The notes beneath the pieces are model-generated. The model was not told the origin of the DNA, ran no database searches, and saw only the letters and a list, made by a program, of their open reading frames with translations. From an uncultured Eubacteriales bacterium (GTDB taxonomy: Bacteria; Bacillota; Clostridia; Peptostreptococcales; Anaerovoracaceae), in contig ONAY01000017.1 of the NCBI GenBank assembly GCA_900315895.1, positions 1 through 32,936 of the forward strand: a stretch of 32,936 nucleotides of DNA, in the 5' to 3' direction. Positions 5,633 to 21,555 of this stretch are shown one piece after another. Positions within the stretch are counted from its first letter, which is position 1, and each line of letters begins with the position of its first letter. Both the position numbers and the translations under genes were made by a program.

Positions 5633-8533
5633 CTACTCGCCGTAGACTACGATCTCAGCGTCCATCTGGCCCATGATAGCTCTGATCTGATCCGCCGGGA
5701 TCAGCGTGGGACCTCCGAAGGTGATGCTTTGGTATGCACCTGCCGCATGAGTCCACTGAGCCGCAGGTCCGTTGGTGGACGACTTGTCCGTAGCGAGAAG
5801 CACCGGCGCTCCTATCTTAGCCGCCACCGCACCGCCGGAAAGTCCGTCGGGGAATGACATGCCGTAGACCAAAACTGCATAGCGGCGGCTTCCCGGGAAG
5901 AACTCTTCTGCCACAAGAAGCGACGTCTCGAAACGGTTTGCTCCGTTGAGACGATATATCCTATCCTCCGGAACAAAGCCCTTAAGCTCGTTTTCGATGT
6001 CTTCGTTTACCGCTCCGGTACCGCCGACGATCCATGCATCGGTAGCCGTAATGTCACGGAGAAAATCTTTCTGTCCTTCGTTCAGAGAATTTCCGACCAG
6101 CAGGATGGGTTTTCCAACAGAGCTTGTGGACAAAGCGTCTGCGAAGCCCATTCCTGAGCATACCAGCAGTTCTTTTGCTACGGTGCTGTCGATGCTGTTG
6201 GCCTCCTTGAGGATCAAAATATTTGTGGCGAATCTATCGCTTCCGCCCAGGCGCTTTACGTCATATCCCGCAGCGTTCAGCTTGCCTTCGAAATCTTCGG
6301 ATATGGCTCCTGTTCCTCCCAGAAGATAGACCTTACCTGCGGCCTCCACATTGCTCTGGATGTAGCCGAACACTTCCTCTTCATATATGGGATGCACCAG
6401 AAGGATGGGAGATTCGGTCACTTTAGCCAGATAGCTTCCCGAGAGAGCGTCTGCGAAGTTTCTTCCGTCTGCTATGATCACAGTGGGAAGCTTGTCGTCA
6501 CCCTTCAGTTCCTTCAGGTAGTTCGCTGCGCTGTAGGCGGTCTCATAGCGGCTGGAGCCGTAGATCCTGAGATGCTTGGAGGGAAGCCCCTCTATCTGTG
6601 CCTCAGGAGCCGCGGGGCTGCCTGGAGCGGTCGTGACTATGCCATCTTCTATGATGCCACCTTCAGGAATGGTTACCTTATATGGTTCATCCACTCCTCT
6701 GCTGGCCCAGATACCGCATTCGTAGCCTTCCGCTGATATGGTTCCTTTTCCATATACCTTCGCATGGGAGCCTATGAGCTTGATCTTGCCACGTGTGTAT
6801 ACTCCATGGGCATTATCTTTGCCCACGCCTGTGGCTCTGACTTCCGAATCTCCTTGAAGGATCAGATCCGGAAACAGAGTAATGCCTTCTGCAAGGGCGC
6901 CCGGAGCTTTACAGTTTGCTATTATTGTGGAATCGGTGACTGTCACCTTGGATCCACCCTGCTCATGGATATTATAGATAGCCTTGTTTCCATAGGCGCC
7001 ATCCGCATTGGACTCTGCGTTGACTGTTACATAGGAATCACGGATGTTCCAGTCGCATGCACTGCTTTGAGTCTCTATTCCGCTTGCACCCTCGTCCTGG
7101 CAGTTTGCAGAAATGGTGAGAGTCGTTCCATTCAGCGCCAGATCCTCATAAATTGATGCTCCGATGGCTCCTTTACCTGTGCATACGGCACTTATCTCCG
7201 CCAAGCTTTCATTTATCTCAGCCGCATACACCTGGATGCCTGACGGATAATTCTGAGCAATAGCCTCTATATCTGCATCCGCCCTGAACATTGTAAGCTT
7301 TTTAGAAGTACTGATCCCGTAAGACGAGTGATATTCTCCTTGTCCTTTAGCACTGATCAGGGTGGTACCTCCCACAATGCTTACGGGACAGGATGTCAAG
7401 ATGCCGTAGGCATCTCCTGCGCTGTCCACCGTGATATCCAGATCTGTTTTCTCGATAGAGATTAACTCATTCTCTGAATATTGACAAAGTATACCTGCCG
7501 ACTGATAGCCACCGCCGGCTTTTACCTTGATGGACCCTCCGGTCACATCCATGTTGACAAGTCTCAGGCCGTATGCAATTCCGCCGCCGCCGGTATTGGA
7601 TGCCGTAATATCCAGAGCCCCATCGGTCATTTTAAAACTGGCTCTTTCACCATAGGATTCTATTCCATAGACCTGCCCTCTATTAGCTGTCACCGTACCG
7701 TTAAGGCTGCCTCCGCTTATAGTTACTGTCTGATAATACATAAGCTCGCCGCCGGTTCCGTTTACGGTCATGTTCACCTTTCCGCCTGTCATGGTGAATG
7801 TGCTTCCGGCATATACATTAGGATGGAAGCCGGTTGCACCGCCGGTAGAATCTGCCTTGGCGACGATCTCTCCTCCTTTAACATCCATGTACTGCGCTTT
7901 GATAGAATAAGCCGAATCCCCCTTAGCAAAAGCGTTGATCGTTCCGCCTTCTACCACGACTCTGCCGCCGTCTGCACCTTCGCAGATCAGACCGTAAGAT
8001 ATGGTGTCCCCGGACTCACCTGATGCCGTCAGCGTGCCGCCGTCCATATAAAATCCGTAGTTAGCAAACAGCCCGGCGTTGACACCCGTATCATTTGTGA
8101 TCTTTGCGATGACGTTTCCTCCATGCTGTGTATAGTGTCCGCTGGCGATACCAAACTTCCAGCCGCCGCTATCTGTCCTGTCCACACAAAGAGTTCCGCC
8201 TTCTACGACAAGGCTTTGAGCCGAGCCCTCCATGTCGATTCCGTTGGTCACGGTCAGTTTTCCTGAGTCAGACCCCTTGATAGTAAGAGTTCCTCCTTGT
8301 TCGGAAGATATTTTATCCACCGTGACATCATCCCCTGCATTAAGAACGATCGTGGTCCCGGCACCCGGTACCCAGTAGTTATGCCCCGCCTCCAAGGTCG
8401 ACGCCTGTACCTCACCTTGGGGTAAGGTGACATCATCTGCGGCATATACCGGTCCGCTCACCGCAGGTACCATGGCCAATACCATGGCCAGCGCCAGAAG
8501 CATTACCGTCAGCCGTTTAGCTATTTTTCTCAT
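5633..8533 (-). CDS. Secreted repeat-rich surface protein with three CWB2 domains
   Basis: The protein has 966 residues from the start MRKIAKRL, chosen for AGGAG 8 bases upstream; the 24-codon extension to 8605 lacks a site and precedes the signal peptide. Layout: signal peptide 1-32 (cleavage near PVYA-ADD); about 600 residues of short glycine-rich units such as VEGGTINAF, MKGG- or MTGGxxx and NGTTLTISAN, the look of a right-handed parallel beta-helix; then three CWB2 repeats at about 650-966, each with a DRFATN- or SRYETA-type start, a FADALSGS-type core and a VYLLGGTGAI-type end. CWB2 modules of Clostridia bind the secondary cell-wall polymer non-covalently, so this is probably an anchored surface protein or adhesin; the ligand of the helix is unknown. 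The same CWB2 set closes the giant protease at 14506-21135. Confidence 0.85.
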   Translation of the reverse strand: MRKIAKRLTVMLLALAMVLAMVPAVSGPVYAADDVTLPQGEVQASTLEAGHNYWVPGAGTTIVLNAGDDVTVDKISSEQGGTLTIKGSDSGKLTVTNGIDMEGSAQSLVVEGGTLCVDRTDSGGWKFGIASGHYTQHGGNVIAKITNDTGVNAGLFANYGFYMDGGTLTASGESGDTISYGLICEGADGGRVVVEGGTINAFAKGDSAYSIKAQYMDVKGGEIVAKADSTGGATGFHPNVYAGSTFTMTGGKVNMTVNGTGGELMYYQTVTISGGSLNGTVTANRGQVYGIESYGERASFKMTDGALDITASNTGGGGIAYGLRLVNMDVTGGSIKVKAGGGYQSAGILCQYSENELISIEKTDLDITVDSAGDAYGILTSCPVSIVGGTTLISAKGQGEYHSSYGISTSKKLTMFRADADIEAIAQNYPSGIQVYAAEINESLAEISAVCTGKGAIGASIYEDLALNGTTLTISANCQDEGASGIETQSSACDWNIRDSYVTVNAESNADGAYGNKAIYNIHEQGGSKVTVTDSTIIANCKAPGALAEGITLFPDLILQGDSEVRATGVGKDNAHGVYTRGKIKLIGSHAKVYGKGTISAEGYECGIWASRGVDEPYKVTIPEGGIIEDGIVTTAPGSPAAPEAQIEGLPSKHLRIYGSSRYETAYSAANYLKELKGDDKLPTVIIADGRNFADALSGSYLAKVTESPILLVHPIYEEEVFGYIQSNVEAAGKVYLLGGTGAISEDFEGKLNAAGYDVKRLGGSDRFATNILILKEANSIDSTVAKELLVCSGMGFADALSTSSVGKPILLVGNSLNEGQKDFLRDITATDAWIVGGTGAVNEDIENELKGFVPEDRIYRLNGANRFETSLLVAEEFFPGSRRYAVLVYGMSFPDGLSGGAVAAKIGAPVLLATDKSSTNGPAAQWTHAAGAYQSITFGGPTLIPADQIRAIMGQMDAEIVVYGE

Positions 8534-8605
8534 GTTTCTGTCTCCTTTCCGGATATCATTTAAAGCTCCTAAAAACCTACGTTTCCAATATTTTCCTATA
8601 CACAT

Positions 8606-10438: not shown

Positions 10439-11281
10439 TTAGAATATGGCTACGACTGCTCCGTTGTAGGTATCCAGAATGAACTGCTTAACAGCGTCTG
10501 TCTGGAGAGCAGCTACCAGAGCCTGGATCTTTTCGCTGTTCTCGTCGCCGGATCTGACCGCGATGACGTTGGCGTAGGTCTGAGCTGCGTCACCGGAGGC
10601 ATCCTCAACCGCCAGAGCGTCTGAGATCTTGAGGCCTGCAGCAAGGGCGTAGTTTCCGTTGATGACTGCTACTGTTCCCTGATCGGAGTTGGCCAGCTGA
10701 GCGGGAACTGTGTCTGCCTGAACGGCTGTAACATTGTATCCGCCGTTATCCACGATATCCAGTGTGGTAACGCCTGTAAGAGCGGAAGCGTCTGCAGGAA
10801 GTGTGATCAGACCCTCCTGCTGGAGAAGGAAGAGAGCTCTGGTCTCGTTGGAATCGTCTGCAGGGATGATGATGGTGGCACCATCAGGGATCTCGTCCAC
10901 TGATGCTACTCCGTTTCCGTAAAGTCCGAAGGGTTCATAGTGCACCAGGGCTGCTGACACAAGGTCTGTGCCGTTTGCCTCGTTATAGCTTAAGAGATAA
11001 GGTGTGTGCTGGAAATAGTTTGCGTCCAGTTCTCCGTCAGCCAGTGCCTGGTTGGGGAGCACGTAATCGTCGAATACCTTGACCTGAAGGTCGTAACCCT
11101 CTTCTGCCAGGATGTCCTTTACGTGTTCAAGGATCTCAGCGTGAGGAGTTGAGCTTGCTCCTACAACGATGGGTGTGAGTTCCCCTTCTTCTTGAGGGGC
11201 AGGTTCAGAGCTTCCGCCGCATCCGGCGAAGCATACCAGTGCGATTACCAGTATAAGTGTGAGTAAAAGTGACTTCTTCAT
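10439..11281 (-). CDS. metQ: Methionine ABC transporter substrate-binding lipoprotein
   Basis: This 280-residue lipoprotein binds methionine outside the membrane and delivers it to MetI. The lipobox FAGC puts the acylated Cys at residue 21. The NlpA/MetQ family core is clear: PIVVGASSTPHAEILEHVKDIL, VKVFDDYVLPNQALADGELDANYFQHTPYL, and AVINGNYALAAGL. Length is typical. It is the last gene of metN-metI-metQ, 63 bases after metI; the gap holds a small CAGCC/GGCTG hairpin on the transcript and GGAGG 6 bases before the ATG. Substrates of this family include L- and D-methionine and some dipeptides; the Met-rich leader at 13105-13221 supports methionine here. Confidence 0.93.
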   Translation of the reverse strand: MKKSLLLTLILVIALVCFAGCGGSSEPAPQEEGELTPIVVGASSTPHAEILEHVKDILAEEGYDLQVKVFDDYVLPNQALADGELDANYFQHTPYLLSYNEANGTDLVSAALVHYEPFGLYGNGVASVDEIPDGATIIIPADDSNETRALFLLQQEGLITLPADASALTGVTTLDIVDNGGYNVTAVQADTVPAQLANSDQGTVAVINGNYALAAGLKISDALAVEDASGDAAQTYANVIAVRSGDENSEKIQALVAALQTDAVKQFILDTYNGAVVAIF

Positions 11282-11344: not shown

Positions 11345-12022
11345 CTATTCCTGTATTCTTCTGTCGGATACCTTTGATGCGCGGGTGCCGATCTCTTGGA
11401 TGACCTGAACGATTATGACCATGAGGATCACGCATACCCAGATAACGTCGTCTTTTGATCTTTGGTGTCCGTAGGTGATGGCGATCTGTCCCAGGCCCGT
11501 GCCTCCGATGGTGGCTGCCATTGCGGAGTATCCCAGGATGGTCACCATGGCGATTGTGGCACCGTTTAGAAGCGATGGCCTGGCCTCCGGCAGAAGCACC
11601 TTCCAGATGATCTGAAGGGTGTTGGCTCCCATGGCCTGAGCGGCCTCGATAACGCCGCCGTCCACCTCGTTAAGGGAACTTTCAACCATTCGGGCCACAT
11701 AGGGCGCGGCTGCGATGACCAGCATCACTATGACCGCCTTGTTGCCCAGGGCCGTGCCTACTACGAACTTTGCTACGGGAAGCATGGCCACCATCAGAAT
11801 GATGAATGGAATGCTCCTGAAAAAGTTCACCACGAAGCCTACCACACGGTTCAGTACCTTCTTTGGCCTGATCCCCGTATCGGATGTGACCTGGAGCAAA
11901 ACACCCAGTGGCAGACCGAACAGGTAGGCGAAGGCCGATGATATTACCGTCATGTAGATGGTCTCCCAGATCCCCATGAGGATCACGTTGTTGTCCATCA
12001 ATTGTCTAAGCATATCAGACAT
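11345..12022 (-). CDS. metI: Methionine ABC transporter permease
   Basis: This 225-residue permease has five predicted membrane helices. The conserved cytoplasmic EAA loop, EAAQAMGANTLQIIWKVLLP (about residues 128-147), contacts MetN. Length and sequence fit MetI. Its ATG (12022-12020) directly follows the metN TAA without a gap, and AGGAGGTGA lies inside the metN end, so translation is coupled. It works as a homodimer with two MetN and receives methionine from MetQ. Confidence 0.93.
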   Translation of the reverse strand: MSDMLRQLMDNNVILMGIWETIYMTVISSAFAYLFGLPLGVLLQVTSDTGIRPKKVLNRVVGFVVNFFRSIPFIILMVAMLPVAKFVVGTALGNKAVIVMLVIAAAPYVARMVESSLNEVDGGVIEAAQAMGANTLQIIWKVLLPEARPSLLNGATIAMVTILGYSAMAATIGGTGLGQIAITYGHQRSKDDVIWVCVILMVIIVQVIQEIGTRASKVSDRRIQE

Positions 12023-13027
12023 TTATATCACCTCCTCCTTCTCGACCCGCCAGTCTACGGTGCTCTGCTCAAGCCATGCCTTGATCTTGGCGGCCTGCCG
12101 CGGGTCCTTGGGAAGTCCCACTACCATGTGACCGTAGGTCACGTCGCCCACTTCCCTGGTGTCAGCGAATATGATGCTGACCGGCACCTGGCTTTCCAGG
12201 ACCATCCTGGAGATCACGGGCTCTCCCGCCTCCTGACCGTCGAAGATGATCCTTATCTTTTCTCCTCCCAGAGCTTCCAGGGCATCGGTCCTGTCGCTGG
12301 GAAGTATCAGTTCTCTTCCGATGGTTGACTGGGGATTGGTGAACACATCGCTTACCTTTCCCTCTTCTGCAATGTGGCTCTTATCGATTATGGCCACCCT
12401 GTCGCAGATCTGATCTATTACCTTCATCTCGTGGGTGATGACCACTACGGTCACTCCCAGATCTCTGTTTATATCCTTGAGCAGTTCCAGTATGGACCTG
12501 GTCGTGGTGGGGTCCAGCGCGCTGGTGGCCTCATCACAGAGTATGTACTTGGGATCCATGGCCAGAGCTCTGGCGATGGCCACTCTCTGCTTCTGGCCTC
12601 CTGAAAGCTGTGATGGGTAGCTGGTGGACCTTTCCGTAAGTCCCACCCTTGCCAAAAGCTCCTTAGCCCTCTCTCTGGCCTTTGCCTTGGACTTCCCTGC
12701 GATCTCCATGGGGAAGCACACATTGTCCAGAACGTTTCTCTGCTCCAGAAGAGCGAAGTCCTGGAAGATCATGCCTATGCTCTGCCTGAGCTTCAGAAGT
12801 TCCCTTTCGGGAAGCTCCCCGATGGACTTACCGTCTATGATGACCTCACCTGCGGTGGGCCTCTCCAGCAGGTTAATGCACCTTACCAGGGTGCTCTTCC
12901 CCGCTCCCGACAGACCGATGATCCCGAAGATCTCTCCGTCGTTGATGGTGAGGTTTATGTCCTCCAGGGCGGTGATCTCCTTGTCCTTGGTCCTGAATGT
13001 TTTGCTCAAATGTTTTAATTCGATCAT
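12023..13027 (-). CDS. metN: Methionine ABC transporter ATP-binding protein
   Basis: This 334-residue importer ATPase has Walker A GLSGAGKST (38-46), signature LSGGQKQRVAIARAL (141-155), Walker B YILCDEATSALD (161-172) and the H-loop His in VVITHEM (199). The C-terminal 90 residues form the NIL domain, which binds methionine and inhibits transport when the cell pool is high (known for MetN of E. coli). AAGGAG lies 9 bases before the ATG. It is the first gene of metNIQ. The upstream leader contains a Met-rich peptide ORF and a hairpin with a T8 run ending 25 bases before the start codon, so expression is probably decided by attenuation. Confidence 0.95.
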   Translation of the reverse strand: MIELKHLSKTFRTKDKEITALEDINLTINDGEIFGIIGLSGAGKSTLVRCINLLERPTAGEVIIDGKSIGELPERELLKLRQSIGMIFQDFALLEQRNVLDNVCFPMEIAGKSKAKARERAKELLARVGLTERSTSYPSQLSGGQKQRVAIARALAMDPKYILCDEATSALDPTTTRSILELLKDINRDLGVTVVVITHEMKVIDQICDRVAIIDKSHIAEEGKVSDVFTNPQSTIGRELILPSDRTDALEALGGEKIRIIFDGQEAGEPVISRMVLESQVPVSIIFADTREVGDVTYGHMVVGLPKDPRQAAKIKAWLEQSTVDWRVEKEEVI

Positions 13028-13052: not shown

Positions 13053-13086
13053 AAAAAAAACCGGGGAGCCCGCTTGGCTTCCCGGT
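13053..13086 (-). terminator. Leader terminator (attenuator) of metNIQ
   Basis: On the transcript ACCGGGAAGCC (13086-13076) pairs with GGCTCCCCGGT (13070-13060), with one internal mismatch, and is followed at once by eight T (13060-13053). It lies between the Met-rich leader ORF and metN, so read-through is needed for metNIQ expression. A competing fold is possible: TCCGA (13113-13109) with TCGGA (13090-13086), enclosed by GGCT (13131-13128) with AGCC (13079-13076) and CC (13125-13124) with GG (13083-13082). It would take up the 5' arm of the terminator. The first of these segments covers the last codons of the leader ORF. Confidence 0.8.
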
Positions 13087-13104
13087 CCGATTCTGTCTTA
13101 GATC

Positions 13105-13221
13105 TCAGTCGGATATGAAACGTGGCGAGCCTGACTTCTTTGCAACGACAAACATGCACATGGCGCCCATGCACATCATCATATCCATCATCATAATGTT
13201 TTTGGATGAATAATTCGCCAC
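13105..13221 (-). CDS. Methionine-rich leader peptide of metNIQ
   Basis: This 38-codon ORF has a GTG start (13221-13219) 7 bases after AAAGGAAG (13236-13229) and a TGA at 13107-13105. Residues 10-23 read MMMDMMMCMGAMCM: nine methionines and two cysteines in fourteen codons. Such a run is the mark of ribosome-mediated attenuation: with little Met-tRNA the ribosome should stall there, leave the downstream segments free to form the antiterminator, and let metNIQ be transcribed; with enough Met it reaches the stop, covers TCCGAC-TGA, and the terminator forms. If GTG is not used, ATG at 13194 gives the same Met run. The promoter, RBS, ORF, terminator and transporter order is seen directly; the mechanism is inferred. 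Confidence 0.8.
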   Translation of the reverse strand: MANYSSKNIMMMDMMMCMGAMCMFVVAKKSGSPRFISD

Positions 13222-13251
13222 TTTGCTTCTTCCTTTCTGAAATATAGACTG

Positions 13252-13280
13252 ATTGTATACCAACAAACAAAGAAAGTCAA
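13252..13280 (-). promoter_or_regulatory. Promoter of the metNIQ operon
   Basis: On the minus strand TTGACT (13280-13275) and TACAAT (13257-13252) are exactly 17 bases apart. Transcription would start near 13245, just before the leader ribosome binding site, giving a leader of about 215 bases. I see no S-box (SAM-I) or T-box motif in that leader. Confidence 0.75.
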
Positions 13281-14505: not shown

Positions 14506-17500
14506 TTATTGAACGTAGCCGTAAGAAAACTCGAGATATTCATCGAATACGTCAAGGAAGAAGTCTGTGGTGACAAGACCCTTTCCTCCGAGAGCATAAG
14601 GTGCTCCCCATACTCCGCATTTCTGTATGTACTCCTTGTTGATATCGAGATATGCAGGACCGTAAAGGATCGGTGCATCAAGCATATAAGCCATAAGTCC
14701 TCCGGAGATACAGTCGGGGAAGTTGCTCTGGTAAGCATATACCAGATTAGACGGTCCTTCCGGGAAGAATTTTTCAGCAACAGCAATGGCTGTGGCTGCT
14801 CTGTTGTCTCCTGCTACTCTCTTGACTTCTGCTGCATAAGGCTTCAGTGAGTTGAGGACTGCATCGCTTACAACTGCGGTTCCGCCTACAACGTAGATGT
14901 TCTCGAAGTTCTGTGCTGCGAGGTATGCTTTCTGATCGTCATTGAGTTCCTTACCTACGATCAGGATCGGAAGTCCTGTTGCAGATGAAGTTGCTGCATC
15001 AGGCCAGCTAAGTCCGCTGCAGACCAGAAGATCTGTTCCGGGCTCATCAACCTCTCCAAGGATGGCCAGGTTGGTCTCGAATCTGCCGTCTCCGGCAAGT
15101 CTTGTGACTTCATAGCCCTTAGCCTTGAGGTCAGCCTCGAACTTGGCATCCACTGCTTCGGTTCCGCCGAGGATGAATACTTCAGCGCCTTCCACAGCGT
15201 TAGCTCCGATGTAGTCGATCACAGAATTCTTTACCTTATCCTGCTTGTTGTTGATCAGAAGGATAGGCGCGTTGTTCTGGATGGACAGATAGCTTCCTGT
15301 AAGAGCATCCGGGAAAGCATCACCGGTTGCCACTATGACTGATTCGAACGGCTCATCTCCAAACATTGCCTTGACTTCATCTGCGATCTCCATTGCTGTG
15401 TCATACCTGGTCTGACCGAAGACTCTGTAGGGGAAGGGCTGAGTTTCCGTGGCGCCGCAGTTTTCACAGGTGCGTACGAATTCTTCGTCTTCCTTATTGA
15501 ACTCCCATTCTCCCCAAACGTGAGCGGTGAGATAGGATGTGCTTACCTCTTCAAGGTCAAACTCATCGTTTCTCTCACTTGTAGTTGTTACTACTTCGCT
15601 GGGCTCACAGGAGTGAGCAGCCTGGAATTTCAGGGCAGCTATTGCGTAGGGAATTTCTTTTTTATCTGCGTAGGCGATGGTGATAGTTCCGGTCTCCGGA
15701 TCATTATTGATGGAAGTAAGAACTGTGGGCTTATGTTCGCCCTGATCGTCCTGGATCATCGTTTCAATTTGTCCGATATATGTGAGGAACTCCGGATCGT
15801 ACTTGATGGTAGCGAGTCCATTGGATACAGACACGTCCTCTGTGAGCCACATATGGACTTCACCGTCATCAAATATAGTGGGATTAGTATCAATGGATTC
15901 CGGAAGAGTAACATCGGCAAGCCTGGGTCTATCCTGTGCAGTTACTGCGTTGGTGGATCCATCAGCGTTCTTATCAAGTCCCTTTGCGCGGAATGCATTG
16001 AGTTTTGCCATGTTGGCTTCAAGCTCAGCCGTATTCTGTGAAAGGTCTGCATCGAACTGGGTGCCGTTAGCCGGTGCCGCTCTGAATCCTACGTCGGCCT
16101 TATTGAACAGTCCTGTCACAGGCCATACGTTTTCACCGAAATCACCGATCTCGATGGCGCGCTGGTTCTGCAAGTCTATGTAGTACAGAGTTGAACCGAT
16201 TCCGGACTCAGTGTAGGAGAAGTACAGAGTACTGGTCCTGTCATCATAGAACATGCTCTGTCTCAGCCATCCGGGTTCAATTCCTATGTTGAACAGCGAT
16301 GTGAACTCGAACTGAAGGTCATCATTGCCATCTTCATCCACAGTCCAGACGCCTTTGGCATCCCAAAGCGTTCCCAGCTGGTCCATTACATAGTATTCCG
16401 GTGCATATTCGGAGTCAAATCCCTTAAGGGCTACTGCGCACCAATAGGTCTCGTTAGTTGCGTAATCCGGATGTTCGCCGACAATGAAGGGAAGACCGAC
16501 CTTGCCGGTATACGATGCCAGGTCTGGAATTCCTGCCGGATATTGCGGGTCACTGTTTCCTAATACCAGATAGGGACCATAGACATAAGCCATATCCACT
16601 CCACTTCTTGCAGAGGGATAAGCCATTGCAAGATCCACAAGCGGCCAGTAACCGATTCCATAAGGATCGAGTTCAGGTGTGGTGGTATCGTTATCGATAA
16701 AGTTATAGCTTGAATCCACCTTATAGATGGCAGCATCTCCGGTGCTGTAGTCAAATGTTCCGGAATAGAGCTGAGTGGGTACGCCCACTGCTCCGCTCTC
16801 AAGGCCATAGTATGCTGTTGTGGTCGAGATTCCCTTAAGGTCTCCCATCTTGTTAAAGGCCTTGATCCTGCTGGCGCTGTCGGTGCCCATGCTTATGAAG
16901 GACTCGTTTTCATTTCCTTCAATATTGGAATCCCATGCGATAGCACTGAGTTCACCCTTCACGCTTGTAACTGTTACGTGGCATGTCGAACTGATAGTGG
17001 GATCGGCAACGGATGTAGCAGTGATATCTGCCTGACCTTTTGCTACGGCTGTTATAGTTCCATCTTCTACAGTTGCCACGGAAGCATTGGAAGTTGCCCA
17101 TGTTACAGCAGTGTTTTCAGCTGTGATGGGAAGGAGCTTGGCTTCGATGGTCTCGGAGTTGCCCTTGTACAGATATACTTCATCAGAGCTGAGTACTACT
17201 TCTGCAGGTGCAAGAGGATTATCATAATCAGCTGCGTTGTCATTTACCTTGAGTACCTGAGCAACTTCATTTCCTGCATAGTCGCCTGCGAATACTGCAG
17301 CGTACATCGGGATGTCATCCATGACATTGGAGAGGTCAAGTTCTACCGTTGCGGTTGCTTCTTCGGGAACCTCATATGCATAGAACTCTGATCCATCCAG
17401 TGAAATCACACCTACAAATGCAAGGTGTTCGTTATCAGACACAGGGATGGTGACCTTACCTGTTTCAGCATTAAAGTTGACGGTTCCAAGTTCAGGAGCT

Positions 17501-20500
17501 GTATCGTCTACTACGAAGTCATATCCAACATAAGCGCCTTCGCCCAGAGTTCCCTCTTCGATAAGGCCTGCCAGCTGTTCGTCAGTATCAAGATATCCGT
17601 TCTTGTCAGAGATCATCATGCCGTCAACACCGATTCCCTGATTTGCAGTGTAAAGCATCGCATTGTATTCGGGAATAGAGTAGAAGCCTGCACGGAACAG
17701 ATCGCCTTCAGCAAGACCATAGTCTGCCGGGCTCTTGCCTACTGTGCAGTTTCTCACACCGGTATTCTGCTGAACACCCTGACTATCGGTATATACTCCG
17801 TATACCAGTATGTTCTGGATGGTGGCAGCGATGACGTTATCGATATCGCCTTCCTCATTCAGCTCACTTACTGCGAAACCTGTGGTGGCTGCATTACGGA
17901 GAAGTGTGTAGTAAACTTTCTTGATCTGTGTATCGCTGGTAATAGCGAAACGATCATAGGGGATCTCTTCCTCAGGAACGTAGGGGTTACCCGTGAAGAC
18001 GAACTCTCTGGGACCCTGCTTCATAACGAAGTAGTTGGAGATGTTACCCGTATAGGACGGCCATACGTTCTCCTCACCATAGTGATACACATCCATCTTA
18101 GATGTGTAATCGAACATGGATGAGTCACTCCAGTTTCCATAGAAACCAAGTACCGGGATGGAGTGAGATGTCTCAAGGCTGAGGCCCTCTTCTGTTTCTG
18201 TTACACAGTTTGCATATGTGAATCCTTCGATGTATGCACCGGCAGGATATTCACTTAAGTCTTCATTCAGTGTTACTGTTACGAACACCTGAGCCTTGCC
18301 GTTGGCAGGAACGATGTAGTTTGTAGCCAGATCGCCTGCTTTCCAGCCAAGAAGCAGATGTGCGTCGTATGTGGTAAGCTTGCCGTCTTCGTCCATCTCG
18401 CCTGCAGCCAGGTCAAGAGCGCTACCGTCATTTATGCCAGTCAGATAGTCCAGGATAGCCTGAGCATCCAGCTTATCGGTATCGCCGTCCTTGTCGACGT
18501 CATGCTCATCAAGGCCTGCTACGTCTGCCACCCACTTGTAATCCACTGTGACATTCAGAGGTCTTACAGCGGTATCCAGGAACAGATCATCATATGCAAG
18601 ATTCTGTGTGAAGAAGTCGGAATCAAGTTCGAAAGCTTCATCCTCATCTGTTGTGTTATAGATGGAGAATGCGTAGTTGTATACGCCTTCCTTCTTACCG
18701 TCTTCGCCCAGTTCCACCTTGACTTTGCCGTCTGCGGCTCCTCCGGTGGCAACTGTAAGGAAGGCTTCATCGATCATTACCACGGATGTGGCGTTGATAG
18801 CCTTGGAGATGTCTACCAGACCTGCACCCTGCTGAATAACGGGGAGATAATCTCCATTATTCTTCATCGGTGTAGCTGTTGACATCATCAAGCTCTGAGC
18901 GATAGCTCTCAGATTATATTTGTCTGTAAGCTCGCTATTGAACTCGCCCAGATCATTTTCTTCCAGGTACTGCTTGATAACTCCGGAAAGACCGGCGATA
19001 TGAGGTGCAGCCATGGATGTGCCGCTCATAAGCTCATACTTGTCATGTCCGCCGGTGTTAGCGCCGGAAGATGAAACGGCAGCTCCGTTTACAGAATAGA
19101 TATTTCCTCCTGGAGCAGTAATGTCCGGTTTAAGTACCAGTGATTCGGGAACTCCCCAAGAACTGAAAGATGTGATGGTCGCATCTTCACGTGTGCCGGT
19201 AGCCTCTGCCTTAATAGCCTTAGTTACCGTCATCTTACCGGTATATACAGTGTATGTGTAGGGAACATTCTTTTCTTCACGGGAGATTTCTTCGTCTCCA
19301 TCAAAGTCATAGGTGACCTTTGAGGTGAATTCCTGACTATTTACCGCAGATGCCAGTATGGTCTCCTTGTCTTCACCATTGATGGAAATGTACGGATAGT
19401 TTCCGGTATAACCATCTGTAGACATGCTGATGGAGCCATTGGTGTTATTTACGATAAGGATCGCAGCAGGATTGTAAGGCTTCGGGTTGTTGCCTTTCTC
19501 CACGAAGGATATGGCTCCTCTGTTGACCAGGGTCACCTTTCCGTTGAGAGATAATGCAGCATTCACATCGGCATACTGTTCTGCAAATCCTAAGCTATCA
19601 ATATAGACGAAATCAAATTCCTTTCCGCTTCCGTCTGCGCTGGTGTCAAGGTCTGCCATCTTGGGACCGCTTTCGGTGGTCTCAGTATAGAATACCTTTT
19701 CGCCTCCGAAGACCAGAGGAGCACCTGTTGCGCCAATGTTCTGTGCAGCTGCAACGGATAAGGAATTGATATATGATCCCGGGGATCCTACCGTATTGTA
19801 GATGACACTGTCAGCATACAGCATTCCGTAGGGGCTGTTCTCCATTGCCCAGTCATTGGAGTTTCCGGCAGAGATAGCAGCCACCATATTGGAGTCTACA
19901 AGTGTATTCAGAGCATCCTGATATACGTTGTCATAAGTGAATCCTGCAGATCCGGTACCCAGTGAAAGGTTGACTGCATCGCATTCCATCACCATAGCAT
20001 CTTCGATGGCGTCCATGTAGTCGCCGTCATAAGCGCCGCCGCCCTTTCCGAATACCTTCATGACCAGGATCTGAGCATCCGGTGCCATACCTACGGCATA
20101 GGTTCCGTCAAGAGTATCGACGTATGTATCTCCATCGGGGATGTAGCGGTTTGCAGCTGCGATTCCTGCGACGTGAGAGCCATGCTCGCCCTCTTTGTCA
20201 TGTACGTGGGTAACATCCAGATCCTCATCTACATAGTTGTAGATGTATGGCATCTTGGAATTGAGATAGATGCCGTGTCCGTTGAGCTGATCGGCTACTG
20301 CATCAACGTCTGCTTTATCCATGAGATCCACAGTCTTACCGAACTTCTCTTCGTACTTCGCAATGGCATAATCGAAGGCACCGCTGTCGAAAGACTGGTG
20401 CTCGATGTCAGCGCCGGTATCGATGATTGCTATGCGCTGTCCGGCTCCGGTATAGCCATCAGCCCATGCAGCCTGCGCACCGACCATGTATTCACTGGTC

Positions 20501-21135
20501 ATTGCAGTCTTGGGATCAGCTGTTCCGGGATCGGTCGGGATAGCCTCATAATGATTCTCGCGCTGTACGCCTTCAACGTCCTTGTTGTCAAGGATGGTCA
20601 TTATGTCTCCATAGGTCACTTCTGCGGAAATGACGTTTACAGCAAGAGTGTGGTTTGATTTGACATTGATATCCTTGCCCAATGTCTGGTTGATCTCGCT
20701 CACAACTTTAGCCTGCTGATTCTTCAGAGACTTTCTGTAGTTCTTGGCAGTGAAGCTGTTGATCTTTTCAACAGAATATCTGCTGAGAACCGGGGGTTTG
20801 GATAAAATGATGGCAACACGAACTGTCTCCTTGAGCTGAGCTTCACTCATATTGGCAAGCTCTTCTCTGGTGATGACTCCAGAGATCACAGGCTCAGGTT
20901 CTTCCTGTTCGGCCAGCTCGGCGGCTTCAGCCTCTCCAAGTCTGGGAACCTGAAGGTCGGACAGATCCGGTCCTTCCACCGCGTCACCGTTCTCTTCAAC
21001 GGCGACATCAGCTGCTTCCTCGGAAACAGCTTCGCTGACTTCTTCATCAGCATAAGCATAACCCATCGTTGTGGGCATTATTACCATGCTTATGGCAATG
21101 AGGACGATCAGCAAACGCTTCAAGGTACCTTTCAT
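14506..21135 (-). CDS. Giant cell-wall subtilase (S8 protease) with PA, dockerin-like, Big_2, cohesin-like and CWB2 modules
   Basis: The protein has 2209 residues. Signal peptide 1-30; inhibitor-like propeptide region about 85-200. The S8 catalytic domain has Asp239 (IAIIDTG), His318 (GEHGSHVAG), oxyanion Asn425 (SAGN) and Ser707 (SGTSMAAPH). A PA-type insert lies between Asn and Ser (about 470-610), as in cell-envelope proteases of the C5a-peptidase/lactocepin kind. Then come a Fn3-like region split by a dockerin-like pair of calcium loops (about 876-935: DVDKDGDTDKLDA and EMDEDGKLTTYDA), a Big_2 domain (about 1309-1390), a large region of unclear fold (1391-1740), a cohesin-like domain (about 1755-1840), a CENCGATE knuckle (1889-1896) and three CWB2 repeats (about 1902-2209). 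It should be secreted, held on the wall by CWB2 and digest external proteins. It is monocistronic. Confidence 0.9.
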   Translation of the reverse strand: MKGTLKRLLIVLIAISMVIMPTTMGYAYADEEVSEAVSEEAADVAVEENGDAVEGPDLSDLQVPRLGEAEAAELAEQEEPEPVISGVITREELANMSEAQLKETVRVAIILSKPPVLSRYSVEKINSFTAKNYRKSLKNQQAKVVSEINQTLGKDINVKSNHTLAVNVISAEVTYGDIMTILDNKDVEGVQRENHYEAIPTDPGTADPKTAMTSEYMVGAQAAWADGYTGAGQRIAIIDTGADIEHQSFDSGAFDYAIAKYEEKFGKTVDLMDKADVDAVADQLNGHGIYLNSKMPYIYNYVDEDLDVTHVHDKEGEHGSHVAGIAAANRYIPDGDTYVDTLDGTYAVGMAPDAQILVMKVFGKGGGAYDGDYMDAIEDAMVMECDAVNLSLGTGSAGFTYDNVYQDALNTLVDSNMVAAISAGNSNDWAMENSPYGMLYADSVIYNTVGSPGSYINSLSVAAAQNIGATGAPLVFGGEKVFYTETTESGPKMADLDTSADGSGKEFDFVYIDSLGFAEQYADVNAALSLNGKVTLVNRGAISFVEKGNNPKPYNPAAILIVNNTNGSISMSTDGYTGNYPYISINGEDKETILASAVNSQEFTSKVTYDFDGDEEISREEKNVPYTYTVYTGKMTVTKAIKAEATGTREDATITSFSSWGVPESLVLKPDITAPGGNIYSVNGAAVSSSGANTGGHDKYELMSGTSMAAPHIAGLSGVIKQYLEENDLGEFNSELTDKYNLRAIAQSLMMSTATPMKNNGDYLPVIQQGAGLVDISKAINATSVVMIDEAFLTVATGGAADGKVKVELGEDGKKEGVYNYAFSIYNTTDEDEAFELDSDFFTQNLAYDDLFLDTAVRPLNVTVDYKWVADVAGLDEHDVDKDGDTDKLDAQAILDYLTGINDGSALDLAAGEMDEDGKLTTYDAHLLLGWKAGDLATNYIVPANGKAQVFVTVTLNEDLSEYPAGAYIEGFTYANCVTETEEGLSLETSHSIPVLGFYGNWSDSSMFDYTSKMDVYHYGEENVWPSYTGNISNYFVMKQGPREFVFTGNPYVPEEEIPYDRFAITSDTQIKKVYYTLLRNAATTGFAVSELNEEGDIDNVIAATIQNILVYGVYTDSQGVQQNTGVRNCTVGKSPADYGLAEGDLFRAGFYSIPEYNAMLYTANQGIGVDGMMISDKNGYLDTDEQLAGLIEEGTLGEGAYVGYDFVVDDTAPELGTVNFNAETGKVTIPVSDNEHLAFVGVISLDGSEFYAYEVPEEATATVELDLSNVMDDIPMYAAVFAGDYAGNEVAQVLKVNDNAADYDNPLAPAEVVLSSDEVYLYKGNSETIEAKLLPITAENTAVTWATSNASVATVEDGTITAVAKGQADITATSVADPTISSTCHVTVTSVKGELSAIAWDSNIEGNENESFISMGTDSASRIKAFNKMGDLKGISTTTAYYGLESGAVGVPTQLYSGTFDYSTGDAAIYKVDSSYNFIDNDTTTPELDPYGIGYWPLVDLAMAYPSARSGVDMAYVYGPYLVLGNSDPQYPAGIPDLASYTGKVGLPFIVGEHPDYATNETYWCAVALKGFDSEYAPEYYVMDQLGTLWDAKGVWTVDEDGNDDLQFEFTSLFNIGIEPGWLRQSMFYDDRTSTLYFSYTESGIGSTLYYIDLQNQRAIEIGDFGENVWPVTGLFNKADVGFRAAPANGTQFDADLSQNTAELEANMAKLNAFRAKGLDKNADGSTNAVTAQDRPRLADVTLPESIDTNPTIFDDGEVHMWLTEDVSVSNGLATIKYDPEFLTYIGQIETMIQDDQGEHKPTVLTSINNDPETGTITIAYADKKEIPYAIAALKFQAAHSCEPSEVVTTTSERNDEFDLEEVSTSYLTAHVWGEWEFNKEDEEFVRTCENCGATETQPFPYRVFGQTRYDTAMEIADEVKAMFGDEPFESVIVATGDAFPDALTGSYLSIQNNAPILLINNKQDKVKNSVIDYIGANAVEGAEVFILGGTEAVDAKFEADLKAKGYEVTRLAGDGRFETNLAILGEVDEPGTDLLVCSGLSWPDAATSSATGLPILIVGKELNDDQKAYLAAQNFENIYVVGGTAVVSDAVLNSLKPYAAEVKRVAGDNRAATAIAVAEKFFPEGPSNLVYAYQSNFPDCISGGLMAYMLDAPILYGPAYLDINKEYIQKCGVWGAPYALGGKGLVTTDFFLDVFDEYLEFSYGYVQ

Positions 21136-21342: not shown

Positions 21343-21419
21343 CGGGGCGTGGCGCAGTTTGGTAGCGCGCTTGACTGGGGGTCAAGAGGCCGCAAGTTCA
21401 AGTCTTGTCGCTCCGACCA
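21343..21419 (+). tRNA. tRNA-Pro (anticodon GGG)
   Basis: The cloverleaf folds by eye: acceptor CGGGGCG with CGCTCCG (one G-U), D-stem GCGC/GCGC, anticodon stem CTTGA/TCAAG around CTGGGGG with anticodon GGG, T-stem GCAAG/CTTGT with loop TTCAAGT, discriminator A and an encoded CCA. It reads CCC and CCU proline codons. Confidence 0.93.
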
Positions 21420-21479: not shown

Positions 21480-21555
21480 GGGGCATTAGCTCAGCTGGGA
21501 GAGCGCCAGGTTCGCAATCTGGAGGTCAGGGGTTCGATCCCCCTATGCTCCACCA
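21480..21555 (+). tRNA. tRNA-Ala (anticodon CGC)
   Basis: Acceptor GGGGCAT with ATGCTCC gives the G3-U70 pair that identifies alanine tRNA. D-arm GCTC/GAGC, anticodon stem CCAGG/TCTGG around TTCGCAA with anticodon CGC, T-loop TTCGATC, discriminator A and encoded CCA. It lies 60 bases after tRNA-Pro and is probably co-transcribed with it. Confidence 0.93.

Follow-up and report, generated by a model that had tools for sequence, protein, structure and literature searches.

The metNIQ locus and its leader

The window analysed here is the whole stretch of 32,936 nucleotides of contig ONAY01000017.1 from an uncultured Eubacteriales bacterium of the family Anaerovoracaceae (assembly GCA_900315895.1). 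Its minus strand carries, in this order, a promoter, a short leader ORF, a terminator hairpin with a T8 tract and the methionine importer genes metN, metI and metQ (Table 1). Leader and promoter lie between metN and a divergent mazG-like gene. The leader ORF translates as MANYSSKNIMMMDMMMCMGAMCMFVVAKKSGSPRFISD, and its nine Met codons match the pathway of the genes that follow, while the terminator, judged by its sequence and hairpin energy, stands between the leader stop codon and the first of these genes. Coordinates, Met and Cys counts, promoter, ORF, hairpin with T8 and metN had all been reported to the exact base in a preliminary description of this DNA. That description had also placed correctly the two complementary stretches, TCCGA (13113-13109) and the GGCTnnCC stretch GGCTCGCC (13131-13124), which are both included in what is called segment 2 below.

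Table 1 Features of the metNIQ leader and operon in the window
Feature	Position	Strand	Basis or remark
Sigma-70-type promoter TTGACT-17-TACAAT	13252..13280	-	Sequence and consensus scan, 10/12 consensus
-35 box TTGACT	13280-13275	-	Spacer 17 bp
-10 box TACAAT	13257-13252	-	Sequence
Shine-Dalgarno-like AAAGGA of leader ORF	13231..13236	-	Sequence; identical in L009 and L010
Met/Cys-rich leader ORF, 38 codons	13105..13221	-	GTG start 13221-13219, TGA stop 13107-13105
Sensor codons 10-23 (nine Met, two Cys)	13153..13194	-	Sequence
Segment 1 (protector), GAAGC...GTGGCGA around leader start	13215..13229	-	Predicted from minimum-energy folds
Segment 2, antiterminator 5' side GGCTCGCCACGTTTCATATCCGA	13109..13131	-	Inside last leader codons; duplex test and folding
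Segment 3, antiterminator 3' side, TCGGA...GAAGC...GCG	13071..13090	-	Folding
Intrinsic terminator hairpin (segments 3:4)	13059..13087	-	-18.6 kcal/mol
T8 tract of terminator	13053..13060	-	Sequence
metN, ATPase with NIL domain	12023..13027	-	Fitting best NCBIfam model, score below cut-off
metI, permease	11345..12022	-	Above NCBIfam cut-off
metQ, substrate-binding lipoprotein	10439..11281	-	Best model MetQ/NlpA, below NCBIfam cut-off

The window's terminator hairpin was not listed by a simple consensus terminator scan, probably because a mismatch splits its stem. The same scan did list a 10-bp hairpin within the Met run (13176-13154, minus strand), which is made of the Met and Cys codons themselves; this is possibly a pause hairpin and is not general across genera. 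Elsewhere, the window encodes a 2209-residue subtilase (Peptidase_S8) with three cell-wall-binding CWB2 stretches (14506-21135), a second CWB2 protein (5633-8605, minus strand) and two tRNA genes recognized by Rfam (21343-21416 and 21480-21552, plus strand).

Conservation of the leader in the Anaerovoracaceae

Matches to MetN at E <= 1e-85 were obtained in 126 of the 349 family genomes, and 125 family loci were examined, a leader with five Met being admitted as Met-rich only if MCM or MYM was present. Orthologous Met-rich leaders with a terminator-like hairpin, which the preliminary description had led one to look for, were found in 83 of these loci, in 21 genera; the other 42 loci were without such a leader. 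A strict count was made on the 119 loci with at least 300 nt of upstream sequence with two requirements, a Shine-Dalgarno site and six or more Met within 16 codons. It gave a Met-rich ORF before metN or metQ in 77/119 cases on the forward strand, as against 0/119 on the reverse strand and 0/119 in dinucleotide shuffles. The best other residue, Ser, reached 11/119 on the forward and 10/119 on the reverse strand. The leader is not a product of chance.

A search of 345 family genomes for the pattern ATGATGNNNATGTGYATG gave 71 places in 67 of them, and none for the reversed pattern. Of the 83 leaders, 59 hold the forward pattern, the window's own leader not being among them; of four other places that were checked, two are leaders at the end of a stretch and two are not leaders. 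Where metQ comes before metN, the leader precedes metQ (e.g. L018, L041 and L111). In L097 and L169 (G121:C3:28464 and 28630), two Met-Cys runs stand in tandem before one metN, the second of which may have arisen as a duplicate of the attenuator and since decayed.

Of the six other genomes of the window's genus, two gave a MetN match at E <= 1e-90, each with the leader in front (L009 and L010). Promoter (TTGACT-17-TATAAT and TTGACA-17-TATAAT, n=2), ORF, stop codon and terminator are all kept in this pair, and the start codon is ATG. Among the three sequences of the genus, the Met run is identical; between the start codon and this run, four codons are changed, each synonymously. Together with its ribosome-binding site, this pattern leads to the prediction that the ORF is translated. 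The stretch after the Met run varies and includes the sole length change of the trio, L010 being shorter by exactly one codon. Not a single nucleotide differs in the final seven sense codons, where most of segment 2 is located. Met run, stop codon, promoter and terminator are thus kept within the genus; covariation of the antiterminator was found in the selected wider set of 13 Clostridia leaders described below.

T-boxes and riboswitches at related loci

In a class-wide search, MetN matches were obtained in 58 genomes outside the family, and a Met-rich leader (threshold five Met) was present in 4 of the 49 loci examined. The earlier view of such a leader as unusual for Clostridia therefore fits its sporadic occurrence in the rest of the class, but not the Anaerovoracaceae, where it is common. 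T-boxes were found by Rfam before metN in 5 of 40 scanned loci of these other Clostridia. The host genome (87% complete) contains one SAM riboswitch, which precedes metK, and one weaker T-box match elsewhere (E 4e-10). SAM and charged tRNA thus appear to be read by separate devices in this organism.

These matches, both in the host and before metN in other Clostridia, invite the explanation that a riboswitch or T-box controls the operon and that the ORF is incidental. However, no Rfam family, T-box and SAM-I included, was matched at the gathering score on the window's leader, and neither was any in the 40 leaderless family loci scanned (all except two incomplete loci). The transcribed leader, measured from the inferred start, is only about 220 nt long and consists mostly of ORF and terminator, and the host's SAM riboswitch belongs to metK. 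This explanation is disfavoured and has next to no probability in our judgement.

Methionine alone or methionine and cysteine

Cys occurs inside the Met run in 82 of the 83 family leaders and in 21/21 genera, and TGC is used more often than any other codon between two Mets. The leaders had been selected on Met, except for the MCM/MYM rule applied to those with five Met. As Cys is nearly as constant as the Met run itself, the label "Met-specific" given to the leader earlier may be too narrow, and what is sensed may be methionine and cysteine together. A role of the Cys codons in forming a hairpin within the run was considered and found no support: the folding of the run surpassed codon shuffles at 5% in 6 of 21 genera (one leader each).

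The residues between the Mets are non-random, and in genus g43 the sequence MMMEMGMMGMCMC is nearly invariant, as might be expected of a sequence-specific arrest peptide. In such a case, the nascent Met/Cys chain itself would respond to a small molecule and halt the ribosome, instead of charged tRNA being counted. Yet the run varies among genera in order, length and spacing, only its richness in Met and Cys being constant, which fits the counting of codons; the near-invariance in g43 can also stem from pairing of the run at the RNA level, as predicted by RNAalifold. An arrest peptide is accordingly rated as quite improbable.

Terminators and predicted mutually exclusive folds

A hairpin of -11 kcal/mol or lower beside a T-rich stretch follows the stop codon in 112 of 114 leaders, a set in which L137 repeats L018; it fails in L084 and L097 and is dubious in L036. 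When every third leader was sampled, the hairpin was present in 36/37 real sequences and in 2/37 with shuffled downstream sequence. On the alignment of group A leaders, the count of terminator pairs was no higher than in shuffles (66.7% vs 66.7%), probably because hairpins of different length misalign by column. The terminator of g43 does covary (85.3% vs 81.7%, 0/500 shuffles).

Folding of the leader RNA was modelled with the ribosome edge assumed at +12 nt from the A-site codon and with the terminator 5' arm and loop as the nascent RNA already out. For a ribosome at the last Met codon, an antiterminator is predicted in each of the three sequences of the window's genus, at -13.7, -15.2 and -20.3 kcal/mol; it consists of a short outer helix around CGC/GCG, followed by GTTTC/GAAGC and TCCG(A)/(T)CGGA. 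Moving the ribosome to the stop codon leaves only -1.4, -2.8 and -3.0 kcal/mol, as compared with about -20 for the completed terminator. Segment 3, which doubles as the terminator 5' arm plus loop, would thus be contested by two partners, and folds that exclude each other, one of them blocked by a ribosome at the stop codon and free upon stalling, are predicted in 3/3 same-genus sequences, as the preliminary description had proposed. The TCCGA/TCGGA pairing drawn there stands and is refined by the CGC/GCG and GTTTC/GAAGC pairs and by a predicted protector helix: without a ribosome, the RNA around the start codon (segment 1) is predicted to pair with the same segment 2, in a register that differs in L009 and L010.

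When the full-length RNA was folded with the ribosome stalled at the last Met codon, the minimum-energy state was not the same throughout: L001 formed the terminator, L010 the antiterminator and L009 a fold that is neither. With the stall at the first Met codon, L009 too had the terminator as its minimum. Since these minima differ, the kinetic order of folding matters here, as it does in classical attenuators.

Pairing between leader tail and terminator was also assessed by a best-duplex test in which no arms were picked and into which 58 of the 114 leaders were put, some of them near-duplicates. Shuffles were beaten at 5% in 24/58 leaders, where about 3 would be expected. By group, the outcome was 11/23, 2/5, 1/3 (own genus), 5/7, 0/3, 4/6 and 1/11, the test failing in groups D (0/3) and F (1/11). 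The own-genus values were 0.055, 0.065 and 0.005, so that two of only three sequences miss the 5% level.

The covariation set comprised 13 of the 23 group A leaders, which were kept because they could be aligned; L225 and L249, which were dropped, pair poorly. The leaders of this group come from Anaerovoracaceae, Oscillospiraceae, Tyzzerella and other Clostridia and, L164 aside, nearly all stand before metQ. In this wider set, the pairing partner of the terminator loop and 5' arm is a run of codons that translates approximately as FSNVLSV. The 13-leader antiterminator has 89.9% of its cells paired vs 83.7% after shuffling (0/500), with two-sided changes in six pairs (2/500 shuffles), and sliding of the arms cuts pairing to 25-70%. 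The main helix taken separately has 99/108 cells paired over 12 distinct arm pairs (0/2000 shuffles) and four two-sided columns, a number reached by 47/2000 shuffles. The arms were picked by eye, which favours the score of paired cells and, less so, that of two-sided changes.

A global energy measure, the pairing of the terminator 5' arm with upstream RNA, was calculated for 108 leaders and amounted to 0.58 with a stalled ribosome, 0.36 with one at the stop codon and 0.51 in shuffles. The stalled value is barely above that of the shuffles, mainly because g43 and its kin have a different geometry. The ORF of g43 is short and, in most of its leaders, the terminator lies about 45-70 nt past the stop codon, a geometry unlike that of a classical attenuator. 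The stretch from stop to terminator is conserved. It includes an element, TAACGA, the complement of which (TCGTTA) is found in the terminator loop. RNAalifold further predicts pairing of AUGGGAA in the Met run with downstream UUCUCAU, and of CATAG with CTATG, which suggests for g43 that an upstream helix is the first target of the ribosome. In several group A leaders, the antiterminator arm is located 23-45 nt before the stop codon, upstream of a ribosome waiting there; a moving ribosome would cover such a far-upstream segment 2, and a waiting one would not.

Leaders beyond the family

The motif MMxMCMC, Cys-biased by design, was sought in 84,980 species genomes; the scan yielded at least 119 stretches and at least 120 places. 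Among the 120 places listed, a MetN, MetI or MetQ match was found within 1.7 kb downstream at 37, vs 3 in the mirrored control, many of the 37 being g43 genomes already in the family set. A MetY match was found at 11 others, vs 0 in the mirrored control, and none of these at 72. The NCBIfam model for O-acetylhomoserine sulfhydrylase was matched above its cut-off in Flavobacterium L181, in L196 (a MAG labelled Anaerolineaceae) and in Oscillospiraceae L219, and was the best model, below its cut-off, in Lachnospiraceae L212; the other seven of the 11 listed MetY places were identified by tblastn alone.

Leaders rich in Met and Cys, with terminators, were observed before genes of this O-acetylhomoserine sulfhydrylase-like type in L181, L185, L195, L213 and L224 (Bacteroidota), L196, L212 and L219. 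Three Flavobacterium records share the leader MK(N/S)NNKMCCMMMMCMCAPP, without a Shine-Dalgarno match, and have CCAAAAG next and then a terminator holding CCCTTTTGG. In some metY-type leaders, the complement that could act as antiterminator is located directly after the stop codon. More short Met/Cys-rich ORFs were seen in L199, L184, L194 and L228. The one in L199 precedes a gene that by eye resembles a solute-binding protein; the Alistipes/Bacteroidales ORFs among them sit at the end of a stretch, with the downstream gene outside view.

Strings of the M-C-M-C type resemble metal-binding motifs. The ORF could on this account encode a small metal- or thiol-binding peptide acting in trans, the hairpin being the ordinary terminator of a small gene. 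Such a peptide would not by itself account for the association with metNIQ or metY relative to the mirrored controls (among the matches listed) or for an antiterminator that is built of the last codons of the ORF and covaries in the wider set. Moreover, the consensus scan showed no promoter-like site on the minus strand between leader and metN. A peptide of this kind is therefore considered very improbable, albeit less so than control by a riboswitch or T-box.

Together, these leaders could form a recurrent class of attenuators that reads the charging of both Met and Cys tRNAs by means of interleaved codons and that works although the start of the leader itself needs methionine. This class would be found before metNIQ or metQ in Clostridia and before metY in Clostridia, Bacteroidota and the MAG labelled Anaerolineaceae. 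We hold the chances for and against such a class to be even.

Proposed mechanism

In our reading of sequence and modelled folds, metNIQ is very probably controlled by a ribosome-mediated transcription attenuator, with mutually exclusive folds predicted for its leader RNA. The parts on which this reading builds, namely leader ORF, Met/Cys run, terminator and importer operon, are there and conserved at the sequence level. The attenuator interpretation first put forward for this locus is supported, and the finding is broader than was then thought.

When methionine, and probably cysteine too, is plentiful, the ribosome would reach the TGA and cover segment 2 (13131-13109), upon which the terminator would form and transcription would end before metN. 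A shortage of charged tRNA(Met) or tRNA(Cys) would stall the ribosome in codons 10-23 and leave segment 2 free to pair with the terminator 5' side and loop, so that RNA polymerase could continue into metNIQ. Should translation of the leader never begin, the start region would pair with segment 2 and termination would be the default. This default matters because methionine is also the initiating amino acid: a complete loss of methionine would shut the switch, which should therefore answer to partial shortage.

Relation to known systems

Textbook attenuators cover a handful of amino acids, classical leader peptides being those of the trp, his, leu, ilv, thr and phe operons, and for methionine genes in Clostridia the usual assignment is to a SAM riboswitch or a T-box. 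The metNIQ leader has in common with the classical systems an ORF rich in codons for the amino acid of the operon, a terminator, an antiterminator, a protector helix and control in cis. It differs from them in the use of Met with interleaved Cys, in preceding a transport operon, in that Met also initiates and in its occurrence in Clostridia. T-boxes read the charging of tRNA and control termination. Those before metN in other Clostridia share operon and place with the leader and are expected to be Met-specific; unlike the leader, a T-box binds tRNA directly without translation, and it belongs to the 5/40 class-level loci and not to the window's leader. SAM-I riboswitches (S-boxes) control methionine-related genes, often via premature termination. 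They differ from the leader in sensing SAM, and the host's own one is that before metK.

A short leader, MSTTSDRTPATEATTTPGARCMCRRMCAF, precedes metNIQ in Streptomyces lividans TK24, where it was named metL and proposed as an attenuator (PMC8079986). As given there, this leader reads CMCRRMC and, like that of the window, contains both Met and Cys; the paper names methionines and threonines, not cysteines (PMC8079986). According to this source, metL differs in its leaderless transcript, its few Met codons, the lack of a typical terminator and its description in one organism (PMC8079986). Another leader with codons for a sulfur amino acid is the uORFC-8-2 motif before cysS in Rhodobacterales, for which ribosome-mediated read-through has been proposed (PMC8632094). 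On the same source, it differs in having two tandem Cys codons, in its alphaproteobacterial hosts and in preceding a tRNA synthetase gene (PMC8632094).

In the open PMC literature, with bioRxiv outside this scope, no paper on Met-codon attenuation in Clostridia or Bacteroidota was recognised, and a metNIQ leader peptide was found described only in the S. lividans report (PMC8079986). Attenuation is a known kind of control, and one earlier prediction of a Met leader exists, that in Streptomyces (PMC8079986).

A leader that counts Met codons is paradoxical because its own translation starts with methionine. The occurrence of such leaders in 21 genera of one family, with Cys woven in almost throughout, opens three questions to direct tests: whether two amino acids are integrated by a single leader, how elongator and initiator tRNA(Met) differ in their charging during starvation, and in what way T-boxes and leader peptides take each other's place as sensors of one and the same operon.
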